Virus record (IMG/VR): IMGVR_UViG_3300031951_015240
Location: 1-53,883 of that record
Length of the DNA stretch: 53,883 bases
Origin: a virus
Reading direction: 5' to 3' (one strand)
Within the stretch, counting starts at the first letter, position 1. Every line of letters starts with the position of its first letter. Of the stretch, positions 20,835 to 38,087 are shown piece after piece. Position numbers and translations under genes: made by a program. The notes under the pieces are model-generated. The model was not told the DNA's origin and made no database searches. It saw only the letters and a list, made by a program, of their open reading frames with translations.

Positions 20835-20846
20835 AATTATCAATCC

Positions 20847-21920
20847 TCATTTGGGTTTTCTACTTAAGTAAAAATCGCCGCCACAATAATCCCAACGGCA
20901 TATTGTGCCAGTTTTATATAATAAAGTTAATTTTGTTACCCCAATTTCATCATGTACTAAATTTGTATATGCTTTTTCTGGAGAACTTTCTCGTATGTAG
21001 TTTGTCATATGAATACCACAATTAAAAACATTACCATCACCATTAATTGTTATACTTTCATTACCGGCTGCACAATGCCAACCTCTAGCATCTATACCGA
21101 ATTTAAATAAATCATTCGTGGTATACTCAACATCATCTATAAGATATTTCTGTTCTGTTTTATTATATTTTTTATAAAACTCCATATGTTTAGCTTCGAT
21201 TTCTGGAGGGTATTTGTAGTGACAAAATCCATATATCATTTCACTATTAACAATTTTATCATATTTCAGATAATCTACAATACTACTATAGAACTCATCT
21301 GGATATATTTCAATAATTTCTCCATTATAAAATAAATGAGTTCTCTCCACATTCTCCAACATGATATCTAAATTATGAATCTCCACATTCATTTCTTTTA
21401 AAAGATTCCAATTGTGATTAAAATTATTAAATTTTTTTAATCTTTTTAATTCCAAGTAATGAAAGCTTACATTAAAAAGGTCACAATATGGTAGTATTTC
21501 TTTTAACTTTGATTCTTTTAAAGTCAAATTGGTTTGCATCTCATTAGACGCAATAATATTTGTTTGTTTTCCCTTATCATGAATATACTTCAGAATATCA
21601 ACTATCTTAGGATGTGTTGTTGGTTCTCCACCATGATAGTAAAACAGAACAGACTTTAATTTATTTTTTTGTAAGAATTCAAATATCTTATCAATCGTTT
21701 TTATAATATCTTCGTATTTGTAATGTTTACCACTATGCCAGTGACAATAATTACATTTGAGGTCGCACGCTTCAGTAATTCTAAATGTAACGACATACTT
21801 AGACTCCATTATTGAACTGTTGTTTAATTGTAAAACCTTGTAAGAACATTTAGGCTTTATTTGCCCAACTTGCATGTCCTCTTTTTTTCTAACTACTTTT
21901 ATTTTTTCCCAGTTGGCCAT
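20847..21920 (-). CDS. Radical SAM enzyme with C-terminal cysteine domain
   Basis: A 357-residue radical SAM protein. The cluster motif CxxxCxxC is at C52, C56 and C59 (ACDLKCNYC), and YYHGGEPTTHP is the SAM-binding GGE motif. C-terminal cysteines in CAAGNESITINGDGNVFNC and CRWDYCGGD suggest an auxiliary SPASM or twitch-type Fe-S site, typical of enzymes acting on peptides. The N-terminal about 45 residues precede the barrel; internal starts at residue 16 (with GAGG upstream) or 38 are possible. Its start overlaps the U32-like gene by 22 bases. It is one of eight radical SAM genes here; substrate unknown. Confidence 0.88.
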   Translation of the reverse strand: MANWEKIKVVRKKEDMQVGQIKPKCSYKVLQLNNSSIMESKYVVTFRITEACDLKCNYCHWHSGKHYKYEDIIKTIDKIFEFLQKNKLKSVLFYYHGGEPTTHPKIVDILKYIHDKGKQTNIIASNEMQTNLTLKESKLKEILPYCDLFNVSFHYLELKRLKKFNNFNHNWNLLKEMNVEIHNLDIMLENVERTHLFYNGEIIEIYPDEFYSSIVDYLKYDKIVNSEMIYGFCHYKYPPEIEAKHMEFYKKYNKTEQKYLIDDVEYTTNDLFKFGIDARGWHCAAGNESITINGDGNVFNCGIHMTNYIRESSPEKAYTNLVHDEIGVTKLTLLYKTGTICRWDYCGGDFYLSRKPK

Positions 21921-22733: not shown

Positions 22734-23492
22734 TTACATTAGAAAACATTTTGTTTTCGGGCACAATTTGTTGACTTTGATTCTATAACAACAGTTATAC
22801 AAATCTAAGTTGGGTGAGTAGAGGAAGTATTTATCTTTATATAAACAAGGTTTTCCAAAAGTGTTAAAATTAGAATCTATCCAAAGATCACTTCGTTGTT
22901 TACCTAGTCTTTCAATATCTTCAAATTTAATTATTTTTCGATACATTAAATTGTTTTTTAAAGAAAGATATTGTGCGAGTAAAGTATCACTATGACCATC
23001 ACCAAAGTCTGTTACTGGAGTTAAAAATAAATTGTCGTGGTCTAAAGATTTTTTTACTGCAAAATAATAATCTATAGCTTCTTTACCGGTGTACATCACA
23101 TCTATAGTTTTAATATTAACTTTAGTATCTTTTAATCCCTGAACTATATCTTCTATAGACGTTTCTGTAGGATGAACACTTATATTAATTTTAAATGGAT
23201 CTTTTATTTTTTGAATTGTTTTTCTACTATAACTACTGAAGTTCGTCTGTATAACAAATGGAATATTATATTCATTAAATGTTTTTATTATAAAATTTAT
23301 TTTTGGATGAACAAATGGTTCCCCTCCAAAAATAAATATTTCTACACCGGGATATGTCTCACCTAATTTTTTTATAAAATCTTTTATTTTTTCTTCAGTC
23401 AATTCTGGTCGCATACTAGGATCCAAATTTGTACAATACTCACATTTATAATTACATTTAAGTGTAATTTCCCATTCAACAATCTTACTCAT
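22734..23492 (-). CDS. Radical SAM enzyme, short, with terminal cysteine cluster
   Basis: A 252-residue radical SAM protein with C13, C17 and C20 (KCNYKCEYC) and FIFGGEPFVHP as the GGE motif. The C-terminus has a compact cysteine set: KPCLY, YNCCYR, KLCPKTKC, which would fit a small SPASM or twitch-like auxiliary cluster. It is shorter than most SPASM enzymes. The next radical SAM gene upstream overlaps it by 8 bases and the U32-like gene follows after one base. Likely a peptide- or sugar-modifying enzyme; substrate unknown. Confidence 0.88.
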   Translation of the reverse strand: MSKIVEWEITLKCNYKCEYCTNLDPSMRPELTEEKIKDFIKKLGETYPGVEIFIFGGEPFVHPKINFIIKTFNEYNIPFVIQTNFSSYSRKTIQKIKDPFKINISVHPTETSIEDIVQGLKDTKVNIKTIDVMYTGKEAIDYYFAVKKSLDHDNLFLTPVTDFGDGHSDTLLAQYLSLKNNLMYRKIIKFEDIERLGKQRSDLWIDSNFNTFGKPCLYKDKYFLYSPNLDLYNCCYRIKVNKLCPKTKCFLM

Positions 23493-24387
23493 TTTTAATT
23501 TTTAATTGTTTTAAAAGACCATCACAATTGCAAGCTTTATGTGGACAAACCATAGGAACAGTTTTGGTTATATTTTTAAAAAAATCTCTATTGCTTATGA
23601 GATTAATATTATCAGTTTTTGGCATACAAAATTTAACAACGTTACCTCTAACGTCAATTTCATAATTATTGTTGTAACAATTCCATCCTTTAAAATTGGT
23701 TAATTTATCCCTAAATATAATATAATCATTAAAAAAATCATCATCATATTTTAATTCTTTTTCATACGACTCTAAAAAAGAAAAATATTCCCAAAAATCT
23801 TTTCTATAGTTAAACAATTTAGTGATACTATTACCATATAAAAAGTGTGGATGTATTTTTAAATTGGGTATTTTTTCCAAAGTTTCAAACATATTTTTTA
23901 TTTTTGGCCATAAACTTTTATCATGGTGAAGCATAACATTCACTTTACATTTATAACCTCTACCCAGCATATGATGTATATTATTGAGAAATCTATTTTC
24001 ATCCGTACAATCGGCCGGGTGGTAACTGAATAGGAAAGCCAGTTTATCATAATGTGGGTGAAGTGTCAAATCCTTTTCAGCATTTGTTACAACATAAACC
24101 CAATTAAATTTCTCCATTTTACTGATTGAGTCTAAAATATGGTAATAATAAGGACCTAAAGTTGGTTCGCCACCCAACAAACCCAAATTAAAATTCAAAC
24201 TACTTCGATTTAAAGCATCCAATACAGCATCAATTGTTTTTTTACTAGATAGTTTACCCCATTCTTTACCATACTCATTTCTAGCGTAACAATAAGAACA
24301 CTTGAGTTGACAAATAGTAAGACTATCCCAATGAATATTAATATGATCCGGATCTTGATCTTTATGATGTTGTATTTTGTATTTCAT
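23485..24387 (-). CDS. Radical SAM enzyme (paralogue of 30978-31826)
   Basis: A 300-residue radical SAM protein with C26, C30 and C33 (ICQLKCSYC) and LGLLGGEPTLGP. The C-terminal region, CYNNNYEIDVRGNVVKFC then CPHKACNCDG, has the same layout as in 30978-31826, which has CLP...NNVVKNVC and CPKEVCEGG, so these two are likely related copies within the operon. The final cysteines suggest a second Fe-S cluster. It overlaps the GT2 gene upstream by 26 bases. Confidence 0.88.
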   Translation of the reverse strand: MKYKIQHHKDQDPDHINIHWDSLTICQLKCSYCYARNEYGKEWGKLSSKKTIDAVLDALNRSSLNFNLGLLGGEPTLGPYYYHILDSISKMEKFNWVYVVTNAEKDLTLHPHYDKLAFLFSYHPADCTDENRFLNNIHHMLGRGYKCKVNVMLHHDKSLWPKIKNMFETLEKIPNLKIHPHFLYGNSITKLFNYRKDFWEYFSFLESYEKELKYDDDFFNDYIIFRDKLTNFKGWNCYNNNYEIDVRGNVVKFCMPKTDNINLISNRDFFKNITKTVPMVCPHKACNCDGLLKQLKIKNE

Positions 24388-25048
24388 AATTTTTTAAAAA
24401 GTCCAAAGATGCCGTTACGTTTATACTTTTTTTTGTTCCAGGAAAAGAAATATTATCATTACCATCTTTTGTTTGGTAGTAAAATACTTTATTGGTCATT
24501 CTAAATTTCTTCGACTTTTGTGAAGCGTGATAGACCAGTCTAATATCATTATGAATATTGTTATCTATTCCAAAATAAAAATCTTCAATTACACTTCTTT
24601 TAAATATAAATTGTCCTAATTGTAAATGTTCTAAGTTTAATTTATTTAAAAATTCACATTTATCGTGTATAACTTCATCTTTAAACAAATTTATTATTTC
24701 AAAAGTATTATCTGGCTTATAGGTAGGACAATAATTTCCAGCTATAATATCAGCATCAAAACTTTGTTCGAAAAATTGCTTCCTCAAATAGTCATCATCT
24801 TCCAAAAAATAAATATATTTTCCTTTAGACTTAAGAAATAAAAATTCATATACACTTGATATATTATTAAATTTTTCATAATAATAATTTACATTAGTAT
24901 TTTCAATTTCTTTTATATCAGAACTATCATTATTTACAATTACTTCTATTTTTGGAGTTAAATATGATAAAATTGAATTTAAACTTCTTTCAAAAAGTTT
25001 AGGCCTATTATGCGTAAGTATTAAAATAGATAAATCAATGTTTACCAT
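24362..25048 (-). CDS. Family 2 glycosyltransferase
   Basis: A 228-residue GT2 domain: LSILILTHNRPKLFERSLNS at the N-terminus is the nucleotide-binding start of GT2 enzymes, and YIYFLEDDDYLRK near residue 75-85 is the DxD metal site. There is no transmembrane segment, so it is a soluble transferase. It lies between radical SAM genes, overlapping one by 26 bases and the other by 7. It probably adds a sugar to a surface glycan or to a protein; the donor cannot be told. Confidence 0.85.
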   Translation of the reverse strand: MVNIDLSILILTHNRPKLFERSLNSILSYLTPKIEVIVNNDSSDIKEIENTNVNYYYEKFNNISSVYEFLFLKSKGKYIYFLEDDDYLRKQFFEQSFDADIIAGNYCPTYKPDNTFEIINLFKDEVIHDKCEFLNKLNLEHLQLGQFIFKRSVIEDFYFGIDNNIHNDIRLVYHASQKSKKFRMTNKVFYYQTKDGNDNISFPGTKKSINVTASLDFLKNYEIQNTTS

Positions 25049-26034
25049 ATTAATCTTATCTTTTCTCCAAAAACAGGATTTGGACTAACTTTATCTTTAA
25101 GTTCATTTTCTATACCATCACATATATAAAAATATTTACACTTTGTACATTCTTCGGTTTTAAAGTAACTATAAATTCTCATTCGTTCCGCTTCAGAGAA
25201 AGAATGTTCTACTTTTTCATTGTGCGTATAATTTTTTTTAGTGTCTAATGTTCCACTATAAACCGCTTTATTCCAATCTTTAAAGTCATATATATGATGA
25301 TAATGGTTTTTTATATATTTTTCTTTTGATGGCATAAAACAATAAGGAAAATATCTAGCATTAACTTCGGTTGAGTCCTTAAGGTCATCAATATAATTTG
25401 AAACATAGGAACAAATTGTTCCGTAATCAATAGGATAAAAATCTTTATTGTCTCTCCAATAATTGAGAGCAATAAAATTAACTTGGGTGGGGTTTAAAGA
25501 TTTTATAAAAGAAGTGTCTATTTTATTGTAGTTTTCATGATATACAGTTGTGTTCAATCTAACTTCAATATTTAAACGGTGGGAGTTCTCAATAGCTTTA
25601 ATTAAATTTTTAAAAGCTCCTTTTTTGCCTACAATTTTATCATGAACACTTTCATCCGTACAATGTAGACTAAAGAGTATCTCTCTTAAACCTAAGTCGA
25701 AACTTTTTTGAATAAATTCTTTATCACTAAATTTACCTCCGTGACTAAGGCAACTAATTCTATCAAATTTATTTTGGCAATAATTTAATATATTAAACCA
25801 ATTCGGTTCTACACTACTTTCACCACCACTAAGATCGATTTCTTTTATGCCATAGTCAAGTAAATAATCTATTCTTTTGTAGATTTTATCAAGTTCATCT
25901 CTCTCAGACAAACTATTTTTATAGTAACAAAATTCACATTTATAATTACAGAGTTTACCAGTATCTAATTTAGCTCTATTGTTAATAGGTCTATCATAAT
26001 CTATCAGTATTTTTTTAACACTTAATTTGTTCAT
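25042..26034 (-). CDS. Radical SAM enzyme with C-terminal Cys motif
   Basis: A 330-residue radical SAM protein from ATG 26034; a GTG eight codons earlier is also possible. The cluster cysteines are C29, C33 and C36 (LCNYKCEFC), and EIDLSGGESSVEP is the SAM-binding loop with the usual Pro replaced by Ser. The C-terminal CTKCKYFYICDGIENEL resembles the last part of SPASM domains (CxxCxxxxxC). It overlaps the upstream unknown gene by about 20 bases. The class resembles enzymes acting on peptides or on nucleotide-like substrates; no substrate can be named. Confidence 0.87.
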   Translation of the reverse strand: MNKLSVKKILIDYDRPINNRAKLDTGKLCNYKCEFCYYKNSLSERDELDKIYKRIDYLLDYGIKEIDLSGGESSVEPNWFNILNYCQNKFDRISCLSHGGKFSDKEFIQKSFDLGLREILFSLHCTDESVHDKIVGKKGAFKNLIKAIENSHRLNIEVRLNTTVYHENYNKIDTSFIKSLNPTQVNFIALNYWRDNKDFYPIDYGTICSYVSNYIDDLKDSTEVNARYFPYCFMPSKEKYIKNHYHHIYDFKDWNKAVYSGTLDTKKNYTHNEKVEHSFSEAERMRIYSYFKTEECTKCKYFYICDGIENELKDKVSPNPVFGEKIRLIW

Positions 26035-26893
26035 TGATATAATTGATAAAAAAATCACCTTGTTCTAAAGATGTATTTTTTATTCCATCCTTTTTTCTAA
26101 TTTCTAAAGCTTTATCATAATAATCTATATCATAAACAACTTCTTTATCATAGTGCATACACTCTAAAATAAATCTATTGGAACAATCTTTTTTGCCAGG
26201 TAATTTAGTATAAACATATGTAGAAAATTTATTCCACATGTCTGGGACTGGAACTTTATATGTTTTTATTTTTGTATAAAGTTCTGGTTTATTTGTAAAT
26301 ACTACTGTGTTGTTGAAAGAATATTTATTGGAAATTTCAGTTATTGTTTCTTCAGACATAAATCTACTAACATCTGTCAAATAAAACATTACAGAATTTT
26401 CTACATCATCATTTATTTTTTTAAATTTTGAATATAATAATTTTTTCTTATAATCAAAAACATTTATTTTTTTAGGAATATCATCATATATTTCAAAATC
26501 TTGAAATAAGTGACATTGCGCTTTATTGTTTATATAAAAGTCATAATTTTTTTCATGACATCTGAATAGAAAAAAATTATCTGTATATATTTCCGAATTA
26601 TCAAGTCTTGAAGATCCGTCAACTATCAATAAATTTTTTGACAATAATAGTTTTGGAAAAGGATGGTATATTAAATTTTCAACAACTAGATTATCATATT
26701 TCGTGTTTAAAGCTATATTAAATTCGTCTATTGTAGTACCATCGGACAATAGTATACAAGGATTTAGATTTGTCCAATTTTTTATAGCCCAATAATATTC
26801 AATCATTTCAAATAAATGACCACAAATTCCAAATTTGAAACCAAATGAAGTAGTTATAACTAAATCATAGTTTCTCAGATTTACTAAAGACAC
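26015..26893 (-). CDS. Unknown protein, possibly glycosyltransferase-like
   Basis: A 292-residue soluble protein. I do not recognise a family with confidence. Features are an N-terminal strand-glycine stretch (ITTSFGFKFGICGHLFEMIEYYW), LIVDGSSRL, FYLTDVSRFM, TVVFTNKPELY and a C-terminal YTKLPGKKDCSNRFILECMHYDKEVVYD. That last block resembles the C-terminal part of GT-B glycosyltransferases, where an Arg-x-Phe/Leu-x-Glu helix binds the sugar nucleotide and a strand follows. Genome position among glycosyltransferases supports that. It overlaps the following radical SAM gene. Confidence 0.5.
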   Translation of the reverse strand: MSLVNLRNYDLVITTSFGFKFGICGHLFEMIEYYWAIKNWTNLNPCILLSDGTTIDEFNIALNTKYDNLVVENLIYHPFPKLLLSKNLLIVDGSSRLDNSEIYTDNFFLFRCHEKNYDFYINNKAQCHLFQDFEIYDDIPKKINVFDYKKKLLYSKFKKINDDVENSVMFYLTDVSRFMSEETITEISNKYSFNNTVVFTNKPELYTKIKTYKVPVPDMWNKFSTYVYTKLPGKKDCSNRFILECMHYDKEVVYDIDYYDKALEIRKKDGIKNTSLEQGDFFINYINEQIKC

Positions 26894-27892: not shown

Positions 27893-28297
27893 TTATCTCC
27901 TTAGATAAGACTCTACAATTTCATTAACACTCGTTTCATCATTCAAGTTTGATAAATTATTTAATTTTTCAATAATATCGTAAAATTCATCTTTTTTTCT
28001 TTGTAATTCTTTTATAGAATCTCTAAGATTAATATATTTTTCCAAATCATTTATTAATTGTATATCACCAGTTTCTATAATTTTTATATAAATTTCTTCC
28101 CTATTATGTTCACTAATAAAATAACCTTTTGACGTAAATTCATTATTTAACATTAAAAAACTTACAAAATCCAAAAGTTTAAAAGTTAAAAGTTCATCTC
28201 CAAAAATTCCTCTTGCTTTTAACTTACATGCATTAATTGCTTTTCCAGCATAAGTATTCGCATCAATACCTTCAATTTCAACTCTATCATTTTTCAT
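27893..28297 (-). CDS. Unknown small protein with coiled coil, 134 residues
   Basis: A 134-residue protein with no recognised family. The first part is mixed; the last about 50 residues (ELQRKKDEFYDIIEKLNNLSNLNDE...) are charged and helical and likely form a coiled coil. There is one Cys (INACKLKA). It overlaps the membrane protein gene by 11 bases and lies just downstream of the Cys-repeat protein gene, so it may be a chaperone or adaptor for that product. This is inferred from position only. Confidence 0.6.
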   Translation of the reverse strand: MKNDRVEIEGIDANTYAGKAINACKLKARGIFGDELLTFKLLDFVSFLMLNNEFTSKGYFISEHNREEIYIKIIETGDIQLINDLEKYINLRDSIKELQRKKDEFYDIIEKLNNLSNLNDETSVNEIVESYLRR

Positions 28298-28712
28298 TTA
28301 ATTTCTCCATTATTTTATAATTAAAATATAATCTTATTACATTGGTGGCAGCATGATGCACAAATATTTGTGGTATAAAAGAATGTGTTATACTAGTAAT
28401 GGATGCAATTAACAGTCCATTAAATATTTTAACTTTATTGAAAGGATTTATCATTCCATCTTCGATCAATTTTACATACTGCTTTTTATATTTCTTTTCT
28501 TCTAAAACATCTTTTTCTGGTTTTCCACGATTAAATGTTTCATCTTCAAACCATCGCAACATTAATCCATGATACATTGTGTTTATTCGTGCTATCACAA
28601 AGTTTTCTAAAAATTTTAAAGAGAAAAGACAATAAATTAAAAAAATGATGGAACACAAAAATAACCAAGATCCCAATCTTATTCCATGATTAAAATGTCT
28701 TATGTAAGACAT
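28287..28712 (-). CDS. Small membrane protein, two predicted TM segments
   Basis: About 141 residues from ATG 28712; an alternative ATG at 28748 adds 12 residues but lacks a ribosome binding site, while GAAGAA precedes 28712. Hydrophobic stretches are LGSWLFLCSIIFLIYCLFSL near the N-terminus and GLLIASITSITHSFIPQIF near the C-terminus, with a charged middle (EKDVLEEKKYKKQ). The two-TM hairpin shape recalls small phage membrane proteins but no family is recognised. It sits between the Cys-repeat gene and the coiled-coil gene. Confidence 0.55.
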   Translation of the reverse strand: MSYIRHFNHGIRLGSWLFLCSIIFLIYCLFSLKFLENFVIARINTMYHGLMLRWFEDETFNRGKPEKDVLEEKKYKKQYVKLIEDGMINPFNKVKIFNGLLIASITSITHSFIPQIFVHHAATNVIRLYFNYKIMEKLNEK

Positions 28713-28759
28713 ATTGGTTTCTTCTAAATGATTTAGTTGAAAAAACATAATATTTTTAA

Positions 28760-29368
28760 TTAGGAGTAATTACAGTTGCAGGTACATGCGTAATTACAGT
28801 TACATGTACAATAATTGCAATTACAAGTACAATAATTACAATTACAGGTGCAAACTTGCCCAGCAGAATTCAAAGCATTAATGAGAGAATTCAGAATTGT
28901 AGCTCTAATTTGAGTTGCTGGATCTGTGGTAACTGCTGCTGGAACACCAGTTGGTGCAGCAGTAGTAGGAAAGGTTGTTATTGTGGGACTATTTACTGTC
29001 GGACCATTAGGCAAATTAGCATTTGCACCAGACCAATCATTATAAACTTGATTTGTCCTAGAATCGGCAACAGCAAAAAGTGCTCGGATATTATTAAAGT
29101 CGGCAGCTCTAATGTTTGTTGTTGATAACGAACCTTTAGTGGCGCTGCCTCCCCTTCTCGTATTTTCTTCTTTTGCTTTATCAAGCAGCGATTGAAAAAA
29201 CGATCTAGTTATTAAATCCTCTCCAGCTACAACATTCGCAAGATCATAATTCACTGCATTACTACCAACAGTTCCTTGTATAGTTATTGATAGCCTTTTA
29301 TGTTCACCAGCAGGAGTTGTGTTAGTACCTACTCCAAGAGTAGTGTCAAACATTTTACCTAAAGCCAT
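28760..29368 (-). CDS. Virion-like protein with CTCNCNY cysteine-repeat tail (candidate radical SAM substrate)
   Basis: A 202-residue protein. Residues 1-130 look like a folded domain (DTTLGVGTNTTPAGEH..., LANVVAGEDLITRSFFQSLL, RAADFNNIRALFAVAD), without a signal peptide. About 130-170 is a Thr/Pro/Ala-rich linker plus a short helix. The C-terminus from residue 173 is four copies of CTCNCNY (with one Ala before the last copy) and a final Ser: 12 cysteines in 30 residues. The ATG has a strong AAAGGAAA ribosome binding site at 29375-29382. Four radical SAM genes, two next to small helper-like genes, lie directly upstream in the same run. The tail could be a modified peptide core of a RiPP-like system, or a metal-binding or disulfide tail. 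Confidence 0.8.
   Translation of the reverse strand: MALGKMFDTTLGVGTNTTPAGEHKRLSITIQGTVGSNAVNYDLANVVAGEDLITRSFFQSLLDKAKEENTRRGGSATKGSLSTTNIRAADFNNIRALFAVADSRTNQVYNDWSGANANLPNGPTVNSPTITTFPTTAAPTGVPAAVTTDPATQIRATILNSLINALNSAGQVCTCNCNYCTCNCNYCTCNCNYACTCNCNYS
28766..28852 (-). repeat. CTCNCNY heptapeptide repeat, 4 units
   Basis: Four 21-base units encode CTCNCNY; a GCA codon (Ala) separates units 3 and 4. Every difference between the units' codons is synonymous (TGC/TGT, ACC/ACT/ACA, AAT/AAC, TAT/TAC), so the peptide is kept while the DNA has drifted. That pattern points to selection on each residue. Confidence 0.9.
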
Positions 29369-29369
29369 C

Positions 29370-29762
29370 TTATATTTCCTTTGATAAAAAATCTAAATTA
29401 TTTTTTGCTGAACTTTTTGCTAAAAACTTTTCATAGTCATCAAGATCGGATGTTATAAAGTCTAAAGTTTCCAAGTCCGGCTCTTTATTACTAGATTCTT
29501 GAGTATTGTTATTTTGAATAATTGATAAAACCATTTGTTCAATATCAACACCCAAAGCATCACAAATTTGTTGAATGTAAACAGAAATATCAATTTGTTC
29601 CTTTTTCTCATTATTTTCAGAAATAGATTGTGCTAAACTCATAGCTGTGTCAAAACCTATCCAAATTAAGTTGGCGAGGCCTTCATCATATTCCGATATC
29701 TCTTTAATATTTTGTGAAATACTCGTTAACTTTTCAATTACAATTTCTCTATCAGTGCTCAT
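29370..29762 (-). CDS. Unknown acidic helical protein, 130 residues
   Basis: A 130-residue acidic protein without a recognised domain. It is mostly helical (SISQNIKEISEYDEGLANLIWIGFDTAM...), has one Cys, and has a negatively charged C-terminus (DLETLDFITSDLDDYEKFLAK). It starts with an ATGA overlap with the radical SAM gene at 29759-30652 and ends one base before the Cys-repeat gene. The position and small size would suit a peptide-binding partner, chaperone or recognition element for that protein. No winged-helix RRE pattern can be shown by eye. Confidence 0.65.
   Translation of the reverse strand: MSTDREIVIEKLTSISQNIKEISEYDEGLANLIWIGFDTAMSLAQSISENNEKKEQIDISVYIQQICDALGVDIEQMVLSIIQNNNTQESSNKEPDLETLDFITSDLDDYEKFLAKSSAKNNLDFLSKEI
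29375..29382 (-). promoter_or_regulatory. Strong ribosome binding site of the Cys-repeat gene
   Basis: Minus-strand AAAGGAAA lies 6-13 bases before ATG 29368, with GGA at about 9 bases. It is one of the few clear sites within the operon, where most genes rely on ATGA coupling, and suggests higher translation of the Cys-repeat protein. Confidence 0.5.
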
Positions 29763-30652
29763 ATTATTACCTTTTCTTTAAAATCATGAAATTTCGGGGA
29801 GTTCTCATAATTACCATATGTGGTTACATTACCCTCGTCAGTAAAATAAGTTTTTACTTCCTTTCTCTCACCACATCCATCACACATGTCACAAAATAAC
29901 TCACAAACTGGAACATCAATTATCCTATTTATCCAATCTTTCCTGAGACTTTCTTTCATGTTTTGGAGCAAGTCAATTTGAATTTTATTGAGAGTTTCCC
30001 ACGCAACGGATGTTATAAGACGGGTTGGTTTAAAATATCTAATAATATTGGACATATCTTCATAGCAATTATGAACGTTTTTGTGATGTATGGTGTATCT
30101 TATCCTAAATTTCATTGCGTTTTTTCTCAAATTTCTGAAAACTTGGATCATTAAATTAGTTGAATCCTTGCCGCCGTGTGTGACTCTATCCGAATTTCCT
30201 ATACCGTCAAAACTAACGTCTATACTTAACAAGTTTTTTTTATAAAAAAAATTGTTTTTTGTTTCCTCTATAAAACTTTGTTTTAGGTATCTTATGCCAT
30301 TTGTGTTTAAATTAAAATGAACATTTTTCTTTTTTGTATAGGCATAATTCATGGCATAACAAACATTATCCCATTCCATAGTAGCTTCTCCACCAAAAAG
30401 AACAAATAATGTTTGACTATTGGGATCTTCTCTTTCTATAACTCTATCGATACTTTTTTTAATATCTTCTTTAGACAAAATTTGTGGAGGGCGACCAGGC
30501 AAATCTTCATAACAATATGTACAAGCTAAATTACATTTATTTGTGAAATATAATACATTTACTCCCGAATCTTTAGTTACAGTTTTATCCGTTTCATGTC
30601 CTACATAAAAATTTATTTGAGGATACTTTTTTTTGAAAGTTTCGGCGTTCAT
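29759..30652 (-). CDS. Radical SAM enzyme, lacks full SPASM domain
   Basis: A 297-residue radical SAM protein. C40, C44 and C47 (KCNLACTYC) bind the cluster, and LFGGEATMEW is the GGE motif (the usual Pro is Ala). An N-terminal extension of about 30 residues precedes the barrel. The C-terminal CELFCDMCDGCGERKE could hold another cluster but the region is shorter than a full SPASM. Barrel details (DVSFDGIGNSDRVT) match peptide-maturing members. It sits between two small unknown genes with ATGA overlaps and is two genes upstream of the Cys-repeat protein, which makes it a prime candidate for its modification. Confidence 0.88.
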   Translation of the reverse strand: MNAETFKKKYPQINFYVGHETDKTVTKDSGVNVLYFTNKCNLACTYCYEDLPGRPPQILSKEDIKKSIDRVIEREDPNSQTLFVLFGGEATMEWDNVCYAMNYAYTKKKNVHFNLNTNGIRYLKQSFIEETKNNFFYKKNLLSIDVSFDGIGNSDRVTHGGKDSTNLMIQVFRNLRKNAMKFRIRYTIHHKNVHNCYEDMSNIIRYFKPTRLITSVAWETLNKIQIDLLQNMKESLRKDWINRIIDVPVCELFCDMCDGCGERKEVKTYFTDEGNVTTYGNYENSPKFHDFKEKVII

Positions 30653-30978
30653 ATTTCTTTTTTTCGTCTAGCACTTTTAGTTTTATCCATTGTATAGACA
30701 TTATTAGGATTCATTTCTTTACGCTGTTTTGCCGTTTTGATTATGAATGACATATTGTCCAAAAATTTAACATAATCAAATTTATATTCGAATAAATGTC
30801 CTCTCTCAGTCAGTTCAAATCCTACATACTTACTATCGACTTTGGCTTTTCCCTTTTTAGCTTCTTCTATTTGTTTCGACAAATCATCAACAGTCAAAAC
30901 TTTATTGCTTTGATGTTCAACTGGTTGCATCTCAACTTTAATAGGTATAGATACAATACTTTTAAAATTTTTCTTCAT
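30649..30978 (-). CDS. Unknown basic protein, 109 residues, between radical SAM genes
   Basis: A 109-residue basic protein with no Cys and no recognised domain. It has an N-terminal beta-like stretch (IVSIPIKVEMQP), a helical middle (LSKQIEEAKKGKAKV), then ELTERGHLFEYKFDYVKFLDN and a Lys/Arg-rich end. It overlaps the radical SAM gene upstream by one base (TAATG) and the one downstream by ATGA, so all three are coupled. Size and position suit a small partner such as a peptide-recognition protein. This is positional inference. Confidence 0.65.
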   Translation of the reverse strand: MKKNFKSIVSIPIKVEMQPVEHQSNKVLTVDDLSKQIEEAKKGKAKVDSKYVGFELTERGHLFEYKFDYVKFLDNMSFIIKTAKQRKEMNPNNVYTMDKTKSARRKKEI

Positions 30979-31826
30979 TAAATTTCCTTAGGATACATCA
31001 TAAGTCCACCTTCACAAACTTCTTTTGGACAAATAACCTTTTTCGTAATATCTTTTAAAGATAATGGCATAATTTCGTTAGTGCAAACATTTTTAACTAC
31101 ATTATTTAATTCTATTTGAAAAGATTCCGGTAAACATTTATAGCCTTTGAAATTATTTTTTTTATCGTATAATAATCTTAAATTTGTAGTATTTTCTCGA
31201 AAGCCATTATCATATAAAACATCCATATCAATCATAGATTCAGCAGTAGAAGCTTCTACGAAAAAATCTTCTTCTAAATTACTTGAATAATATTTTGTGT
31301 CTCTTAAAAAATTTAATGTAAATTTTATATCCTCCAACTTACACTTATCAATAATTTTTAAAATGTAATTTTTATATTCAGGCATCATACTTATATGAAC
31401 CTCACAGTTTAGATTTTTACACTTATCTAAAAAATCTTCTTTGTGATATTCGGGGTGAAAGGATGCGTAATATGTAACTTTCGAAAAACTTTTTATATTT
31501 TTATAAAAATTTTCTGATCTAGTTAAGTTAGTAAAAAAATAAATTTTAGTTAAATTTTCAATTTCATTTAATCCACTTAATATATCTTCGATATTGGGAT
31601 GTAATGTTGGTTCCCCACCAGTCAAACAAATCTCAAAAGGTTTAGAAATAGTTTTTAATCTACTTATAATCAATTTATAATTATTTGAAATTTGAGTATT
31701 ATCATTATAATCATAACTCAAATGTTCCTTTACATTACAGTAGGAACATTTTAAATTACACCAATTTAATATATGCCAGTTAATTCTAAGAATTTTATCT
31801 TGACTGGTGCAAGAAACAATTTTCAT
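30978..31826 (-). CDS. Radical SAM enzyme (paralogue of 23485-24387)
   Basis: About 282 residues from ATG 31826, which follows the upstream TAA by one base and has TAGGAAC as ribosome binding site; an earlier in-frame start would add 14 residues inside the upstream gene. C23, C27 and C30 (WCNLKCSYC) bind the cluster, and ICLTGGEPTLHP is the GGE motif. The C-terminal CLP...ELNNVVKNVC and CPKEVCEGG match the layout of 23485-24387. The end is coupled to the 109-residue gene by TAATG. Confidence 0.88.
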   Translation of the reverse strand: MKIVSCTSQDKILRINWHILNWCNLKCSYCNVKEHLSYDYNDNTQISNNYKLIISRLKTISKPFEICLTGGEPTLHPNIEDILSGLNEIENLTKIYFFTNLTRSENFYKNIKSFSKVTYYASFHPEYHKEDFLDKCKNLNCEVHISMMPEYKNYILKIIDKCKLEDIKFTLNFLRDTKYYSSNLEEDFFVEASTAESMIDMDVLYDNGFRENTTNLRLLYDKKNNFKGYKCLPESFQIELNNVVKNVCTNEIMPLSLKDITKKVICPKEVCEGGLMMYPKEI

Positions 31827-31827
31827 G

Positions 31828-32952
31828 TTAGTTCCTACACTCCACACCTTCATTTTCAACACCAACATTTTCGATATAATTTAAAACCAAATCTTGGAAA
31901 ACTCTTTCGTCTTTACACTCATCTACCACTCGCATTGCTTGTTCATAATATATGTGGAACAATTCACAAATACTATCTAATGGTTTATTATCATTCATAA
32001 TTTGAGAATATGTACAACCGGCATTACACACCTGTTTCAAATCACACGGTTCACATTTATCATAATTTTTTGGATTAAAAATGTCTTGATAGTACCTAAA
32101 ATTATACTGTTCATCCATTTTCATAATTTTTTTGGATGCAAACCTAGCGCAAGGGTAGAATTCCCCAGAACTCATCAATACTCCACCATTAGTTCCAGCA
32201 AAACAACCAAAAGGTCTTTTACCTTTCACTAAACCATAGAGAATATCTAAAATAGCTAGTTTTAAAAATCCTACTGAACATGGTTTACCAGATTTTATCT
32301 TTTCTATCCAAAAATCTGCAAGTCTTTCACATTCATATCTAAACTGTATTATATCATCTTCTGTCCAAACATCATCACGAACAATACTAAAATCGGGATG
32401 ATCTATACCCCAATCTAAGAGAAATTCAAAATTCTCTTTCATGTCTTTTGTATTTCCTGGCCATATCATGACCTTACATCCGTTTGTCAAATTCTTTATG
32501 ATATCTTTCTTATATTCATACATCGAAAGTATACCATCAAACAATTCGCCTGTTTCTGGATTAGTATTTTCCAAAAGTGGAAGTAAAGGTCTACTCTCAT
32601 TAGAACTCATACCATCAAAAGACCAAGAAACGCCAACACCATTATTTCTCAAATAATTAGCTTTATCTTGATCAATCATCGTTAAATTTGTGATGATATT
32701 AATACCTTTACATTTATCATCCGATCTTAAATAAGGAACAGCGTGAGTTATTAGGTCCCAATTTAATAAAGGTTCACCACCAAAAAAACTTACATGATAA
32801 TCTTTATCACCGGACCTTTGCATTAATTTTGGCAGGTCTTTCATACCCTGATCAAAAACTTCTTTCGTCATCCAAGTTGGTCTGTTTGCCACATAACAAT
32901 ACGGACAACCTAGATTACACTTTTCAGTAACACTTACTTCTAATGTAAACAT
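31828..32952 (-). CDS. Radical SAM/SPASM peptide-maturase-like enzyme
   Basis: A 374-residue radical SAM enzyme with a full SPASM-like C-terminus. C12, C16 and C19 (KCNLGCPYC) bind the SAM cluster, with SFFGGEPLLNW as the GGE motif. The auxiliary cysteines are FGCFAGTNGGVLMSSGEFYPC, then CEPCDLKQVCNAGC, then SICELF. This order is the pattern of anSMEs and sactipeptide/ranthipeptide maturases, which act on peptides or proteins. It follows another SPASM enzyme after nine bases. It is one of the strongest candidates for modifying the CTCNCNY tail. Confidence 0.9.
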   Translation of the reverse strand: MFTLEVSVTEKCNLGCPYCYVANRPTWMTKEVFDQGMKDLPKLMQRSGDKDYHVSFFGGEPLLNWDLITHAVPYLRSDDKCKGINIITNLTMIDQDKANYLRNNGVGVSWSFDGMSSNESRPLLPLLENTNPETGELFDGILSMYEYKKDIIKNLTNGCKVMIWPGNTKDMKENFEFLLDWGIDHPDFSIVRDDVWTEDDIIQFRYECERLADFWIEKIKSGKPCSVGFLKLAILDILYGLVKGKRPFGCFAGTNGGVLMSSGEFYPCARFASKKIMKMDEQYNFRYYQDIFNPKNYDKCEPCDLKQVCNAGCTYSQIMNDNKPLDSICELFHIYYEQAMRVVDECKDERVFQDLVLNYIENVGVENEGVECRN

Positions 32953-32961
32953 TTATTATCC

Positions 32962-34068
32962 TTATACTGTACACTGTTCAGCCTGAATTTTAATTACAGG
33001 CTTTTTATAACTCTTTAGTGCAGTTCTTAATGCGTGATGTACTATCTCGTTTGTCTTAAATACTTTACAGACTTGCCAATTTGCTGTATGATCACTCCAT
33101 TTTTCTAGATATGTTTCTTTTTCTGATTTTTCATAAGTTGCCGCATTACATTTCATACAGAATTGACTGTCACAGTTCATACAATCTAAAGGTTGATTCT
33201 TCAACGCATCCTTATACATTTGAGATTTTTCTTCAATCAACTGATCCAAATCTGCAACTTTAAAAATATTTCCTAATTTATGTGAATGCGATTCTTTGTA
33301 CATGCATCCATGGCAAGGACTCAAATCGCCGTTTAAATCAACACTTACGTAATTTATACCTGCTGCACATAGAGCTCTAGATTGTTGGAACCATCCAAAC
33401 TTCTCAGGAGGTAATTTATTTTCGTAAATATGTTTAGCAATTTTCTTCAATCCATCCTTTAATACTTCCAATTTAGGCATAAATTCTTCTTCTGTCAATT
33501 GGCTGTATAAATCTGGTGTTGGAAAATAATTTTTATCCATTTCTATGACATCCAAAAAGGCTTCATAGATTAAGTGGAAATTTTCAGACGTTAGTACAGA
33601 TTTCAGTGAAACATTCAATCCAGCTTCTTTAGCTGCAATATAGTTTGCTTTGACCATTGCTGACGATGGAGTACCAGATTTAGTCACTCTGGCGATGTCG
33701 TTTACAGGCTTTCCATCATATGAAACCTGCAACTTTAATCTACCGGGAATCTCATTGTGAATTCTAACCAAATCTTTTAAATATCTCTTTAAATACGTTC
33801 CATTTGTATAAAAGAAAAAAGAAAAACCAGGATCATGTTTAAATTTTTCTATGACACCTTTACAAAAATCCCAATTAACAAATGGTTCACCACCCCAGAA
33901 ATAAACATCTTTTTTGGGATCAGAAATTTTAGCCATAAATTCTTCAACATTATCTAATGTCAAAGAAGTATTTTCTTCAAACTCGGTAGATAGTCCACAT
34001 TCAAAACCTTCGGAACAATATGTGCAAGCTAAATTGCAGATACTTGTTACGTTTATATCTACTACCAT
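32962..34068 (-). CDS. Radical SAM/SPASM enzyme, first gene of the long run
   Basis: A 368-residue radical SAM enzyme. C11, C15 and C18 (ICNLACTYC) bind the cluster, and VYFWGGEPFVNW is the GGE motif. The C-terminal set, LCAAGINYVSVDLNGDLSPCHGC, CMNCDSQFCMKC and a later Cys, fits SPASM with two auxiliary clusters, as in anaerobic sulfatase-maturing and peptide-modifying enzymes. The ATG 34068 has an AGGAG site (34074-34078), and a sigma70-like promoter lies just upstream. It is the first gene of a run of 27 tightly packed genes. Confidence 0.9.
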   Translation of the reverse strand: MVVDINVTSICNLACTYCSEGFECGLSTEFEENTSLTLDNVEEFMAKISDPKKDVYFWGGEPFVNWDFCKGVIEKFKHDPGFSFFFYTNGTYLKRYLKDLVRIHNEIPGRLKLQVSYDGKPVNDIARVTKSGTPSSAMVKANYIAAKEAGLNVSLKSVLTSENFHLIYEAFLDVIEMDKNYFPTPDLYSQLTEEEFMPKLEVLKDGLKKIAKHIYENKLPPEKFGWFQQSRALCAAGINYVSVDLNGDLSPCHGCMYKESHSHKLGNIFKVADLDQLIEEKSQMYKDALKNQPLDCMNCDSQFCMKCNAATYEKSEKETYLEKWSDHTANWQVCKVFKTNEIVHHALRTALKSYKKPVIKIQAEQCTV

Positions 34069-34136: not shown

Positions 34137-34871
34137 TTATTCATTTCTAAACTTTTGATTTAATTCCAAAACTTTTTTAAGTATTTCAACATCATAATTT
34201 TTAACTAAACACTCTGTGTCTTTTGGTAAACAAGGCCCACCAAATCCTTTTTTACCATCAGGACCAGGTACTTTGAAATGATTGGATCCCATCCATGGAT
34301 GTTTAGAGAGAACAGTTATAGCTTCATTATAATCGACACCCATTTTTTTAGCAACCTCATACATAGAGTTCATAAAAGTTACCTTAGTTGCATAAAAGGA
34401 ATTCATGGTGTATTTTATAAATGATGCTGTATTAATATCTGTTACAAAAATATTTTCAGTATCTACGGTAGAATGTTTTTTATAAAGTTCCAAAGCCTGT
34501 TGAGATTTTTTACCAGAAAGTATTAATAAGTGTGGATTTACAAAATCTTCTTTCGAGGTTGATCTTGATAGAAATTCTGGGTTATACACAATATCATATT
34601 TTTCAAGATATTGCGGCAAAATTGTGGACTTTACTATAACTATTCCCTGATAGTTCATCTCGAAAATTTCATTCAATACTGAAGTAACCAATGAATAATT
34701 AGTATCGTCTGTTGGTGTGGGGACACAAACGAATATTGCCTCTGGATTTAATAAACAGAGGCCTTTGACCGTTACGTGATTATATTTCGGATCACAAACG
34801 AAAACTTGGGTTTTGGAAAAGCCGTATTCAACGGCTTGTCCAACCATTCCATAACCAATAATTCCAATCAT
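34137..34871 (-). CDS. UDP-sugar 6-dehydrogenase-like protein, C-terminally shortened
   Basis: A 244-residue protein of the UDP-glucose/GDP-mannose dehydrogenase family. GIIGYGMVG gives the NAD-binding GxGxxG (6-11), VCVPTPTDD and VKSTILP are family signatures, YNPEFL follows, and the nucleophile C214 lies in FGGPCLPKD. It stops 30 residues later, lacking the C-terminal UDP-binding domain of the usual 390-450-residue enzyme. It may work with a divergent partner, or have a different substrate. It follows the fibre gene by three bases and is separated from the radical SAM run by the promoter gap. Confidence 0.85.
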   Translation of the reverse strand: MIGIIGYGMVGQAVEYGFSKTQVFVCDPKYNHVTVKGLCLLNPEAIFVCVPTPTDDTNYSLVTSVLNEIFEMNYQGIVIVKSTILPQYLEKYDIVYNPEFLSRSTSKEDFVNPHLLILSGKKSQQALELYKKHSTVDTENIFVTDINTASFIKYTMNSFYATKVTFMNSMYEVAKKMGVDYNEAITVLSKHPWMGSNHFKVPGPDGKKGFGGPCLPKDTECLVKNYDVEILKKVLELNQKFRNE

Positions 34872-34874
34872 AAT

Positions 34875-37800
34875 TTACATAATAACTACTTCTATTAAAC
34901 CTTCTTCTTCAGTTTCTTTATTTTCTAAAGCAATAATTCTAAATGGTAAAATTACATTTTCTTTTATAGAAATACCTACACCAGACTTTTCAGATACAGT
35001 AATTAAATCACCCTTTTCACAAGTACCAATTATTCTAACAGGTAATCGACCTTTAAGTCCAACTATTAAACCATTTTTCAAGTCATTATTCATTACGTAT
35101 GCTGGTTTCTCCGATACGATTCCGATGATAGCGTGTTTTTTGGTGTCTTTTGCTGCAGTAACTTCTTTTTTGCCACCAACCATCATTATGGTACCTGTAG
35201 GATATTTTTTATCGGACAAATATTTTTCAGCCAAGTCAGCGTAAAGGGCTCGCACTGCGACACCTTGAAACTGAAGTGCCCAAACTTCATTAGAAACAGC
35301 AACATCACCAGTAACTTTTAAAGCAGCTAAATTACTTGGGTCAGTTCTAGACGTTGTTGTTCCACCACTTCTAAAAAATACGTTCGAATAGAAATTTGCA
35401 AAATCATCACATCTTATAGTGTTTGTGTGAACAGTTCCACCATCAATAACATTTGTAGCATTTGTAGCACTAGTTGCCGAACTAGCAGTAGTTGCAGTAC
35501 ATGCTGATGATGCTGTTCCATTGATGTTTATACTATAAGTACCGGTTAGTCTACCACTCGGCACAGTACCAGAAGTTAAATTGGTAGCATTTAAATTATT
35601 TAAATCAGCAGCAGGAACATCCGCCCAAGTAAACTCGGTTCCTGTCCACTTTAAGAAACGATTAGCAACAGCAGGAGCATCAATGAATTGTGTTGCACTA
35701 GTGTTTGTTTGATATGGAATTTTATTAGTTGCACCACCAGTAATATTATTTGCTTTATTGGCAAATTCTTCCAAATTATGTAAACCATTTACACCATCTT
35801 CAAATTGCCACTTATCTAATGTTTCATTCCATTGGAATGTAGCAGGAGAGGCATTAGTTCCTCGATAAACTTGTATAGCAGCATTTTCACCTGGAGATGT
35901 ATTTGGATTTAAATCCGAATTAAATACAAAATTGGAACCAAAATATCTAGCACTATCTCCGTCAAATTGAAGATTTGCAGTATTTAATCTACGGGTTATA
36001 GTAAGATCACCAGTAATCGTCTGTGTAGGAGCAACTTTCTGCACAGCATTATTAGCTGCTGCAAATGCAGAGTTAGCATATGCAGATCCAGAAGTAGCTT
36101 TATCTAAAGCTACAGCGTCTGAAGAATTATTAGCTTTAGCGAAAGCTCCATTAGCATATAATGATGCAGAACTTGAAGTATGTACAGCTGTAGCCGTAGA
36201 AATAGCAACGTCATTTAAATCAGTAGCAACTGTATTGGCTTTAGAGAAAGCCGCATTGGCATAAAGTGACGCGGAGTTTGCAACATGTGTTGGTGTATTT
36301 GCCCTTAAGAACGCACCATTTGCATAAAGTGCTGCAGAATTTGCTACATGCGATGGTGTGTTGGCTTGAATGAATGATGAATTTGCATGGGTGAAAGCTG
36401 AATTCGCATATGATGATCCACTATTAGCTGTATGATAAGCCGAATTGGCATAACTTCCAGCTATAACACCTCCCGCGGTAAATGCTAAATTTGCTTGAGC
36501 ATAAGCTGAGTTAGCATAACTACCTGTTGTATTCTGTGCGGCAAATGCTGAGTTAGCGTACATACCCGAAGTCTGTGCAACAAAATGGGCTGTATTCACA
36601 GCTAAAGAAGTTGCAACATTTGAAGTACTTGTGCTGTTTATTGATGAACTTAAGAAACTATCATCCAAAATTCCATAGAGGGAAGAATATGTATTTCCTC
36701 TCGAAATAGTCCATCTATCATCAGCTTCATTCCATCTAATTAACGCATCATCACCTATAGGTCTTTCATTTCTAAATGTCGCTTCAGCGTTTGTTGGTGT
36801 TCTCTTATTTAAAATTATTTCACCAACTTCATACTCAATATCACCTAGAGCTGTCCAAGTTCCTTCAACAGTTAAATTACTAGTAATTAATGCAGTTCTT
36901 AAAGTAGTTTTACCATCAACAGTCAAAGATTCGTGCTGATCATTCGGTGCAAAAATTCTTGTTAAAGAACCAGTACTCATCCATAAGTTTGATGTGACAT
37001 TTAAAATAGATGTATTAATTGTAGAAGAAACGATATTATTTGTTACAATACTATTTCCTGTAATTCTATTTGTGGAAGTTATATTCCATGTCGTTAAAGT
37101 ATTAATCGAAGCTAAATTGATACTAGCAACATTTATAGTAGAACTATTTGAAGTAAGTGTTACTACATTACCAACCAACACCGTAGATGTATTTACAGTG
37201 GAATTATTTAAAATAGAATTGTTTGAAACTAATGAAACTACATTACCAGTCAATATCGTAGAAGTATTTACGGTAGAAATGTTTATTGTAGAATTGTTTG
37301 AAACTAGAGATACTACATTACCATCAATTATTGTTGCTACGTTAATTACAGCAACATTCGATTCTAAATTTACAATGTTCGCTGTTACATTGGCTATTAA
37401 ATTTTTAGTTGTTAAAAAATTTGAAGTAGCGGCATTAGTTTTTAATATATGAGAATTTGTAGTAGTATTATCTAAAGTAATAATTCTAGCAAAAGACAAA
37501 TCATCTAAAACATCAACTTTAGCATATAAAGCATATAGGTTTGCAGTGCTTACATTTGTTGAATATACTTGATCGGAATATAGCGTTTTAGTAAAAGAAG
37601 AACCTGTATTAATATAGGATACATTTCCAGATCCATTCAATCGTAATTTTCCTGTTGTTACAGTTAAATTATTTGCTATGGTTATGTCAGTATTTACAAT
37701 AACATTACTGGTATAAACATTTTGAACAATTTGCAGGTCTCTACCCACGTAAACACTATTCGCCACGTTTAGAGATTGTCCTGGACCCCTAACTGATATT

Positions 37801-38087
37801 GTTCCACCAGCAATAATATTACCAGTTGCTGAAGATTGAATGCCTAAGAAAAGAGTATTACCAAGAGTCAAACTACTTTGAAATAAAACATTGTTAGCTA
37901 CTTGTAACGGTGTTCCTTCAGCTGTTATACTTAATAGGGAGGTACCCGAGAGTAGTAATGTGCCTTGAGCTTTATCGTAGGTGTAGAATCCAAGATCATT
38001 TAAATCTGTAGCAGATTTATTAGTTTGAATTCTCCACTCATCGATAGTGTTAGTTCTGGCAATAATTGGTATTAGTGAAGTAGGCAT
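34875..38087 (-). CDS. Tail-fibre protein, 1070 residues
   Basis: A 1070-residue fibre protein. The N-terminal segment (PIIARTNTIDEWRIQTNKSATDLNDLG) is of the type that attaches fibres in T4-like marine phages. A Val/Asn/Thr-rich region follows, with 25-residue repeats (37130-37335), then W-N-E domains, Ala/Asn repeats like the giant fibres, and a C-terminal domain starting LYADLAEKYLSD and running through a V-rich beta stretch to EEEGLIEVVIM. That C-terminal domain is common on phage fibres and is probably the tip. It is likely a tail fibre for host contact; which of several fibres binds the receptor is unknown. Confidence 0.85.
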   Translation of the reverse strand: MPTSLIPIIARTNTIDEWRIQTNKSATDLNDLGFYTYDKAQGTLLLSGTSLLSITAEGTPLQVANNVLFQSSLTLGNTLFLGIQSSATGNIIAGGTISVRGPGQSLNVANSVYVGRDLQIVQNVYTSNVIVNTDITIANNLTVTTGKLRLNGSGNVSYINTGSSFTKTLYSDQVYSTNVSTANLYALYAKVDVLDDLSFARIITLDNTTTNSHILKTNAATSNFLTTKNLIANVTANIVNLESNVAVINVATIIDGNVVSLVSNNSTINISTVNTSTILTGNVVSLVSNNSILNNSTVNTSTVLVGNVVTLTSNSSTINVASINLASINTLTTWNITSTNRITGNSIVTNNIVSSTINTSILNVTSNLWMSTGSLTRIFAPNDQHESLTVDGKTTLRTALITSNLTVEGTWTALGDIEYEVGEIILNKRTPTNAEATFRNERPIGDDALIRWNEADDRWTISRGNTYSSLYGILDDSFLSSSINSTSTSNVATSLAVNTAHFVAQTSGMYANSAFAAQNTTGSYANSAYAQANLAFTAGGVIAGSYANSAYHTANSGSSYANSAFTHANSSFIQANTPSHVANSAALYANGAFLRANTPTHVANSASLYANAAFSKANTVATDLNDVAISTATAVHTSSSASLYANGAFAKANNSSDAVALDKATSGSAYANSAFAAANNAVQKVAPTQTITGDLTITRRLNTANLQFDGDSARYFGSNFVFNSDLNPNTSPGENAAIQVYRGTNASPATFQWNETLDKWQFEDGVNGLHNLEEFANKANNITGGATNKIPYQTNTSATQFIDAPAVANRFLKWTGTEFTWADVPAADLNNLNATNLTSGTVPSGRLTGTYSININGTASSACTATTASSATSATNATNVIDGGTVHTNTIRCDDFANFYSNVFFRSGGTTTSRTDPSNLAALKVTGDVAVSNEVWALQFQGVAVRALYADLAEKYLSDKKYPTGTIMMVGGKKEVTAAKDTKKHAIIGIVSEKPAYVMNNDLKNGLIVGLKGRLPVRIIGTCEKGDLITVSEKSGVGISIKENVILPFRIIALENKETEEEGLIEVVIM
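36253..36287 (-). repeat. 35-base block identical to 9184-9218
   Basis: The forward words GCATTGGCATAAAG...GTTTGCAACATG are identical over 35 bases between this fibre gene and the 1756-residue fibre gene (9184-9218). Both encode the same HVANSASLYANAA-type stretch in the same frame, about 27 kb apart. Confidence 0.8.
37130..37335 (-). repeat. 75-base tandem repeats in the 1070-residue fibre
   Basis: The forward motif CATTACCA recurs at 37166, 37241 and 37316, exactly 75 bases apart. Each unit encodes 25 residues of the form VVSLVSNNSTINxSTVNTSTxLxGN, a likely beta-helix rung. The units differ by several substitutions, so they are not recent copies. Confidence 0.75.

Follow-up and report, generated by a model that had tools for sequence, protein, structure and literature searches.

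A phage-encoded radical SAM gene cluster linked to a cysteine-heptad protein: a candidate maturation system for a tail-fibre tip

The 53,883-base virus record IMGVR_UViG_3300031951_015240, hereafter the window, carries a module of minus-strand genes in which four radical S-adenosylmethionine (rSAM) enzymes, here named rA, rB, rC and rD, run with small interleaved genes into a substrate candidate, SUB, and which is considered here as a possible maturation system for the tip of a tail fibre (Table 1). A previous sequence-only reading of this DNA had described four rSAM genes, two of them with SPASM-like cysteines, tight couplings with small genes and a final product ending in four CTCNCNY units, and each of these elements has been borne out. 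All four enzymes exceed the PF04055 cut-off of 29.5 bits (rA 59, rB 47.2, rC 44 and rD 47.4 bits), genes overlap by four bases at 29759-29762 and 30649-30652 and by one base at 30978, and the SUB tail is made up of four CTCNCNY units, the last one preceded by an Ala and followed by a terminal Ser. The two SPASM-type enzymes are rA, which barely passes PF13186 (21.6 vs. 21.5 bits), and rB, in which C250, C268, C300, C303, C309, C313 and C329, spaced as C-X12-G-X4-C ... CX2CX5CX3C ... C, are invariant in a 14-sequence alignment including window rB; the cysteines of both were assigned by the seven-Cys SPASM motif, and PF13186 itself finds no match in rB, rC or rD.

A DNA pattern for CTC[ND]CNYCTC recovered 44 viral contigs, several of them near-identical, of which 40 contain a PF04055 match, 39 an rB match at E 1e-3 and 37 a strong rB relative (E at most 1.4e-51). 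Strong rB is missing from G005, G014, G015, G017, G026, G035 and G037. SUB starts at the contig end in G005 and G026, while no rSAM match at all is found in G014 and G037, where the array extends to the contig end, nor in G015 and G017, where just 0.9 and 1.6 kb remain beyond SUB. In loci whose SUB is similar to that of these rSAM-less contigs, rA lies 3 to 10 bases after SUB (L107, L110-L112) or 3.2 kb past it (L226), the intervening stretch holding a homologue of the gene next after SUB in G015 and G017. The sequence-only reading had staked its proposal on the co-occurrence of tail-motif homologues with rSAM genes, and such co-occurrence is what is seen, the four exceptions all ending at the gene or at most 1.6 kb after it. 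Counted over 48 non-redundant SUBs, rA, rB and rD are all in the locus in 37 cases, two of them in 5, one in 3 and none in 3, these last three all lying at or near contig ends. Besides, the heptad make-up tracks rB divergence (Mantel r 0.50, n = 34, a value reached in 0 of 2000 shuffles), a correlation that shared descent alone could explain.

Regarding the opposite direction, an rB profile retrieved 67 loci, 57 of which reach 33% identity or more with E no higher than 2e-30 (L079-L135, without dereplication); the tail is present in 52 of these 57, in the locus itself for 49 and elsewhere in the genome for three Campylobacter phages. Five close loci are without the array, namely L117, to which we return, L097, L106 and L135, where rB is close to the contig end, and L094, whose rB is 76% identical and whose SUB gene has lost both array and frame, which may reflect a real deletion or an assembly fault. 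The remaining ten of the 67 loci hold remote rSAM genes and no heptad. At one of these ten, L137 (3670-5874), the remote rSAM gene directly precedes a protein with many CxC-x-RTAVCDC-type repeats. As a control, nine hand-chosen contigs of related phages (20-92 kb), taken from 77 loci matching the window baseplate gene and absent from the motif scan, gave the array in 0/9 even with a looser pattern, and full-length rB in 0/9 (best score 34 bits). This two-way linkage across strongly diverged contigs indicates that rSAM genes and tail belong to a single system. Its core set is rA, rB, rD and SUB; a high-scoring rC accompanies them only in window-like loci and L031/L032, and the four-enzyme set proposed at the outset is thereby reduced to three.

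There is no support for a cellular or defence system. Searching 84,980 species genomes for the exact pattern returned 5 matches, one of them in a frame broken by stops (L227) and four in metagenome-assembled genome contigs where SUB has rA, or both rA and rB, next to it; L226, the one of these four inspected further, has a collagen-like fibre gene upstream. Prokaryotic viperin (NF038283, cut-off 180 bits) was likewise rejected, rA-rD scoring at most 51.3 bits, and the only PADLOC defence calls are pVip/viperin matches of at most 56 bits to the shared rSAM core.

A search with an rA profile brought in a second class of substrate candidate. From 535 loci 80 were kept and 44 inspected for Cys tails, 15 partial or remote ones (L300-L308, L310-L315) being set aside; a Cys-tail substrate occurs in 25 of the remaining 29, the others being L250 and L251, near contig ends, and L264 and L265, where none was found. 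Several loci (e.g. L277, L280, L309) show the order dehydrogenase-like gene (judged by eye), rB-like gene, protein of 75-90 residues, rA-like gene and SUB. Class-2 SUBs share the N-terminal plan and carry a motif of about CxCNxDCxCNxVCxCxxxCxCNY (L277, L280, L285-L288, L290, L293, L309), which continues into SDxxLK in all nine of these loci except L285; PF13884, the S74 family, is passed by four of the five class-2 SUBs tested, L286 reaching 19.2 bits against a cut-off of 22. A DNA pattern for DCGCNYSD occurs in 6 contigs of the whole collection, all 6 already known with an rSAM pair, and thus brought neither new contigs nor a counter-example. Judging from these sequences, related rSAM pairs would serve other Cys motifs at the same place. 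Of separate note, dense and differently spaced Cys repeats lie near weak rA matches (L302/L303 4372-6282, L304 496-894, L305 4004-4363, L313 9384-9941), and a SUB-like protein at L292 (11133-11636) has (N/D)CHS repeats in place of heptads.

The four units of the window array differ in codons at six of seven positions and in amino acids at none, which argues for a selected protein sequence and does not favour fresh DNA slippage as its origin. Among the 48 non-redundant relatives, units of the same gene show 3755 single-base codon differences, of which 2926 (78%) are synonymous, where random single changes would give 14%; with the Cys positions removed, which the 14% includes, the figure is 1645 of 2474 (66%). 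The unit pairs are not independent and the Cys positions are fixed by the search pattern. Scanning IMG/VR with the window SUB protein gave 32 loci, all 32 with a Cys-array open reading frame, and an alignment of 18 relatives has most of its array columns invariant or near-invariant at an overall identity to window SUB of 35-55%. With Cys imposed by the search pattern at heptad positions 1, 3 and 5, the 340 units of the 48 non-redundant proteins have T at position 2 (73%), N (55%) or D (34%) at position 4, N at position 6 (89%) and Y (81%), F (11%) or H (5%) at position 7. Arrays count 3 to 28 units, four being commonest, and SUB genes stand in tandem, two to four each, in L009, L013, L019 and L028; at L040 (4351-5139) the N-terminal domain of SUB is Cys-rich as well. 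An AlphaFold model of window SUB (mean predicted local distance difference test, pLDDT, 67; predicted template-modelling score 0.64) has an N-terminal core at pLDDT about 70-90 and a disordered array, a predicted disorder that would fit a modified chain or a metal site alike.

The array could be read as a metal-binding, Fe-S or disulfide-bonded tip with metallothionein-like CxC spacing, which the rSAM enzymes would help to load unless they serve another step, e.g. the modification of surface sugars. The 12 Cys within the last 30 residues of SUB, the Cys/His motifs also found N-terminally in many relatives, and the sugar genes and further rSAM genes of the same cluster agree with such a tip, but rA, rB and rD are kept with SUB in diverged contigs and in Campylobacter phages whose genes lie apart, and the non-Cys positions 4, 6 and 7 are constrained beyond metal-binding needs, so that we consider it rather unlikely. 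Slightly less likely again is that the enzymes modify the heptads without crosslinking them, e.g. by epimerisation, methylation or oxidation, resulting in a tip of helical or channel-like form; the presence of three distinct rSAM types for a single repeat and the conserved non-Cys positions would suit this chemistry, whereas the top-scoring named relatives of the enzymes are thioether-forming, though well under membership cut-off.

These relatives are, in NCBIfam, the PapB family NF047865, which is the top match for rA, rB and rD (78.5, 132.2 and 79.9 bits, with rC at 29.3, against a cut-off of 340), and the SCIFF maturases TIGR03974 (rB 87.4, rD 55.1 and rA 49.7 bits against 425). The best solved relative of the rB profile is PDB 5wgg (E 7e-33), the SCIFF maturase CteB; the substrate of CteB is a short Cys peptide. 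These best-scoring named relatives are maturases that form thioethers, and all the scores lie below the membership cut-offs. The resemblance to the PapB/PapA ranthipeptide maturases lies in this top match and in a presumed action on repeated Cys motifs, and the difference in scores of 78-132 bits vs. 340, in the three enzyme types and in a fibre-type protein as candidate substrate. PapB links Cys to Asp/Glu with flexible spacing (PMC9413430).

The nature of SUB is suggested by what follows the array. SDxxLK, the start of the S74 intramolecular chaperone, stands 0-6 residues after it in 30 of the 48 non-redundant SUBs: 8 end in a long S74-type domain and 22 in a short segment with SDxxLK, mostly 12 residues long, while 11 stop at most 6 residues past the array, in L231 the contig ends at that point, and the other 6 end otherwise, one of them also cut short. 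PF13884 is confirmed in 8/8 long class-1 SUBs and was not reached by four other class-1 SUBs tested. The short end, SDxxLKxxIxYM (e.g. L125 13078-13113), is like the first S74 residues without the remainder and may be a docking or recognition tag. In phage T5 pb1 the S74 serine is Ser1264, with Lys1269 five residues on, and the chain is cut just before the Ser (PMC4690869), and in MYRF the S74-type cleavage dyad is S578/K583 (PMC3742443). The S74-type Ser of SUB relatives is the first residue past the last heptad or lies up to six residues later, and window SUB has a Ser at the equivalent place, followed by the stop codon. The simplest reading of these sequences is that the array would be the exposed mature C-terminus in both the S74 and the stop-codon designs, and, with SDxxLK or S74 placed just after it, the array probably forms the C-terminal tip of a mature fibre or adhesin. 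SUB relatives resemble S74 tail spikes and fibres (endosialidase, T5 pb1) in the C-terminal S74 and the Ser/Lys dyad, and differ from them in the Cys array just before the predicted cut and in that many relatives and window SUB have the first S74 residues only or none.

The same boundary bears on the possibility that the array is cleaved from SUB and set free as a RiPP-like (ribosomally synthesised and post-translationally modified peptide) toxin, signal or cofactor, SUB being merely its carrier. SPASM enzymes next to a Cys-rich C-terminus do resemble RiPP cassettes, in which SPASM enzymes are paired with a Cys-repeat substrate. An S74 cut after the array would nevertheless leave it on the large domain, the genes are located among fibre and baseplate genes, and no peptidase or exporter was seen among the module genes, in an inspection that included no systematic search for one; the peptide release suggested in the sequence-only reading is thus improbable.

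SUB is considered of tail type because of the S74 domain in its relatives and its location among fibre and baseplate genes, the module lying in the tail-fibre region of a T4-like phage with sugar and modification genes coming next (Table 1). In nine other loci tested, the large neighbours match a tail or virion-structural family in 8 and a connector family in the ninth, scores that repeats may inflate; in the window, the 1070-residue neighbour reaches 25.3 bits for Peptidase_G2 in Pfam (cut-off 25). The dehydrogenase family gene adjoins rSAM genes in many relatives too, small genes resembling the 130-residue one occur at the same place or between rSAM genes, and relatives of the 134-residue protein come after SUB in most of the 32 SUB loci, among which the DUF6356 gene is restricted to window-like loci and L008. 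Four further rSAM genes of the window all exceed the PF04055 cut-off; a glycosyltransferase gene lies between them, and relatives of several are found in the same order in many loci.

Table 1. Module genes and surrounding features of the window.
Feature	Position	Strand	Description
1070-residue protein	34875-38087	-	tail-fibre type, phrog_19602; adjoins module
UDP-glucose/GDP-mannose dehydrogenase family gene	34137-34871	-	PF00984 and PF03721; upstream of rA
rA	32962-34068	-	rSAM with SPASM domain, 368 residues; core
rB	31828-32952	-	rSAM with seven SPASM-type Cys, 374 residues; core
rC	30978-31826	-	rSAM, 282 residues (longest open reading frame starts 31868); outside conserved core
109-residue protein	30649-30978	-	conserved HLF-Y-D motif
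rD	29759-30652	-	rSAM, 297 residues; core
130-residue protein	29370-29762	-	upstream of SUB
SUB	28760-29368	-	substrate candidate, 202 residues; variable N-terminal domain and C-terminal Cys array
Cys array of SUB	28766-28852	-	residues 173-201, CTCNCNY CTCNCNY CTCNCNY A CTCNCNY, then Ser and stop
153-residue protein	28287-28748	-	DUF6356; downstream of SUB
134-residue protein	27893-28297	-	phrog_25260 (unknown function), E 2e-15
Further rSAM genes	20847-21920, 22734-23492, 23485-24387, 25042-26058		
2OG-Fe(II) oxygenase gene	20232-20843		sugar/modification cluster
Oxidoreductase-type gene	16045-17388		resembles 13758-15023 gene, judged by eye
Trp_halogenase family member	13758-15023		PF04820, 1.3e-61; sugar/modification cluster
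T4-like baseplate wedge genes	44.6-51.2 kb		
Tail-fibre-type genes	34.9-38.1 kb and 5.5-10.7 kb		

Isolated members of the system were found by searching 50,697 phage records: the CPt10 SUB occurs in 15 records and rB relatives (at least 36% identity) in 15, both lists naming the same 11 Campylobacter phages, with SUB and rB of IBB_35 on different contig records. As close relatives, these 11 phages count as one lineage. A tblastn search of named phages with window SUB gave one irrelevant match, probably because the low-complexity filter hides the array, and the CPt10 protein as query recovered the members. The Campylobacter group II phages (CP220, CPt10, CP21 and relatives) have the same heptads and rA-like and rB-like genes, but their array is internal to a 534-residue protein and their enzyme genes are dispersed over the genome, with SUB and rB far apart, whereas the window has a tail array and clustered genes. 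In CP21 and CPt10, SUB comes two (CP21) or three (CPt10) genes after a putative single-stranded DNA binding protein gene, just before RNA-ligase/tail-fibre-attachment genes and within about 5 kb of a tail-fibre gene; an rA-like gene is 2.3-3 kb from SUB, and rB is elsewhere, near a gene annotated as UDP-glucose dehydrogenase whose window counterpart is beside rA. The array proteins are annotated as hypothetical or, in CP21, as N-acetylneuraminate lyase; for the name of CP21_105 (CP21 74991-76595, L236), N-acetylneuraminate pyruvate lyase, support was not found. CxxC-type repeat proteins (NCKNCINCSNCKNC...) also occur in the Campylobacter phages of L129-L131, at about 17834-19271 and about 7 kb from rB.

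As far as our searches show, novelty lies in the substrate class, the phage setting and the S74 boundary, while the logic of a SPASM and Cys-repeat cassette is known from RiPPs. In the literature searched, mostly without subscription journals and preprints, no account of a phage fibre modified by rSAM enzymes was found, in line with the earlier statement that no phage system of this layout had been described; that statement has to be qualified, as the Campylobacter phages carry the layout and a 2010 paper reports both parts. In the accessible sections of that paper, a 21-base repeat is noted in CPT_0180/CPt10_1891 and 11-12 rSAM proteins, called highly unusual, in CP220/CPt10, in different sections and without being connected (PMC2853527). 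Pelagimyophages are comparable, by description only, in that rSAM gene cassettes are reported at their host-recognition cluster; a Cys-array protein is not mentioned in the accessible part of that report (PMC7029224).

The best explanation of the module as a whole is that the phage encodes a system for maturing a fibre tip, SUB being the tip or adhesin that rA, rB and rD mature; we give this reading a probability of roughly 0.62. The variable N-terminal domain of SUB would join the particle, with the Cys heptads at the distal end, on which rA, rB and rD would act during infection, probably aided by the small proteins. Crosslinks are the first guess because the Asn/Asp and aromatic positions beside the Cys are constrained; most likely, several per heptad would connect the sulfur of Cys with nearby Asn/Asp, Thr or aromatic residues, so that a flexible Cys-rich tail becomes a stiff polycyclic tip that contacts the host. 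In S74 relatives, the chaperone would trimerise the protein and then cleave itself off at the Ser after the last heptad, and in window SUB the stop codon at the equivalent Ser would make the array the mature C-terminus without S74. The previous proposal that the phage modifies a particle or tail protein thus holds for the tail-type substrate (S74 in relatives, neighbours) and for the single system (two-way linkage), crosslinking keeping the status of a conjecture.

Several observations weigh on the other side. None of the enzymes reaches a maturase family cut-off in NCBIfam, and the small genes give no match to a RiPP recognition element or PqqD-like domain in Pfam or NCBIfam, the model of the 109-residue protein being uninformative (pLDDT 57). 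G035 is a partial exception, with SUB and rD 10 bases apart and a weak rB match; L117 (8.6 kb) has rA and rB and no array, and together with L264 and L265 it makes three loci with rA/rB and no detected SUB. The linkage would also fit enzymes acting on another product of the same operon. Window SUB has no S74 domain by PF13884, its model matches no known fold in a fold comparison at E 0.001, and CPT_0180 is absent from the 11 CP220 gel bands listed in PMC2853527. No report of SUB detected in a virion was found.

That the core has three rSAM types and each heptad three Cys is no more than suggestive. A more far-reaching version of the fibre-tip maturation reading, which we put forward tentatively and hold to be somewhat less probable than not, is that a dedicated multi-enzyme rSAM machine builds a polycyclic crosslinked fibre tip from the heptad or hexad Cys array, perhaps with one enzyme type per heptad Cys; exposed by S74 self-cleavage or by a stop codon, such a tip might be a new class of genetically encoded biomaterial as well as a receptor-binding surface. 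Since isolated members exist, the system is directly testable, and the enzymes might serve as tools for placing dense crosslinked repeats on a chosen protein. If the maturation of a fibre tip is the true function, a use would be suggested for part of the 11-12 rSAM proteins of CP220 and CPt10 described in PMC2853527, the enzymology of RiPPs would be joined with phage adsorption, and viruses would be using radical chemistry to harden or functionalise the host-contacting part of their particles.

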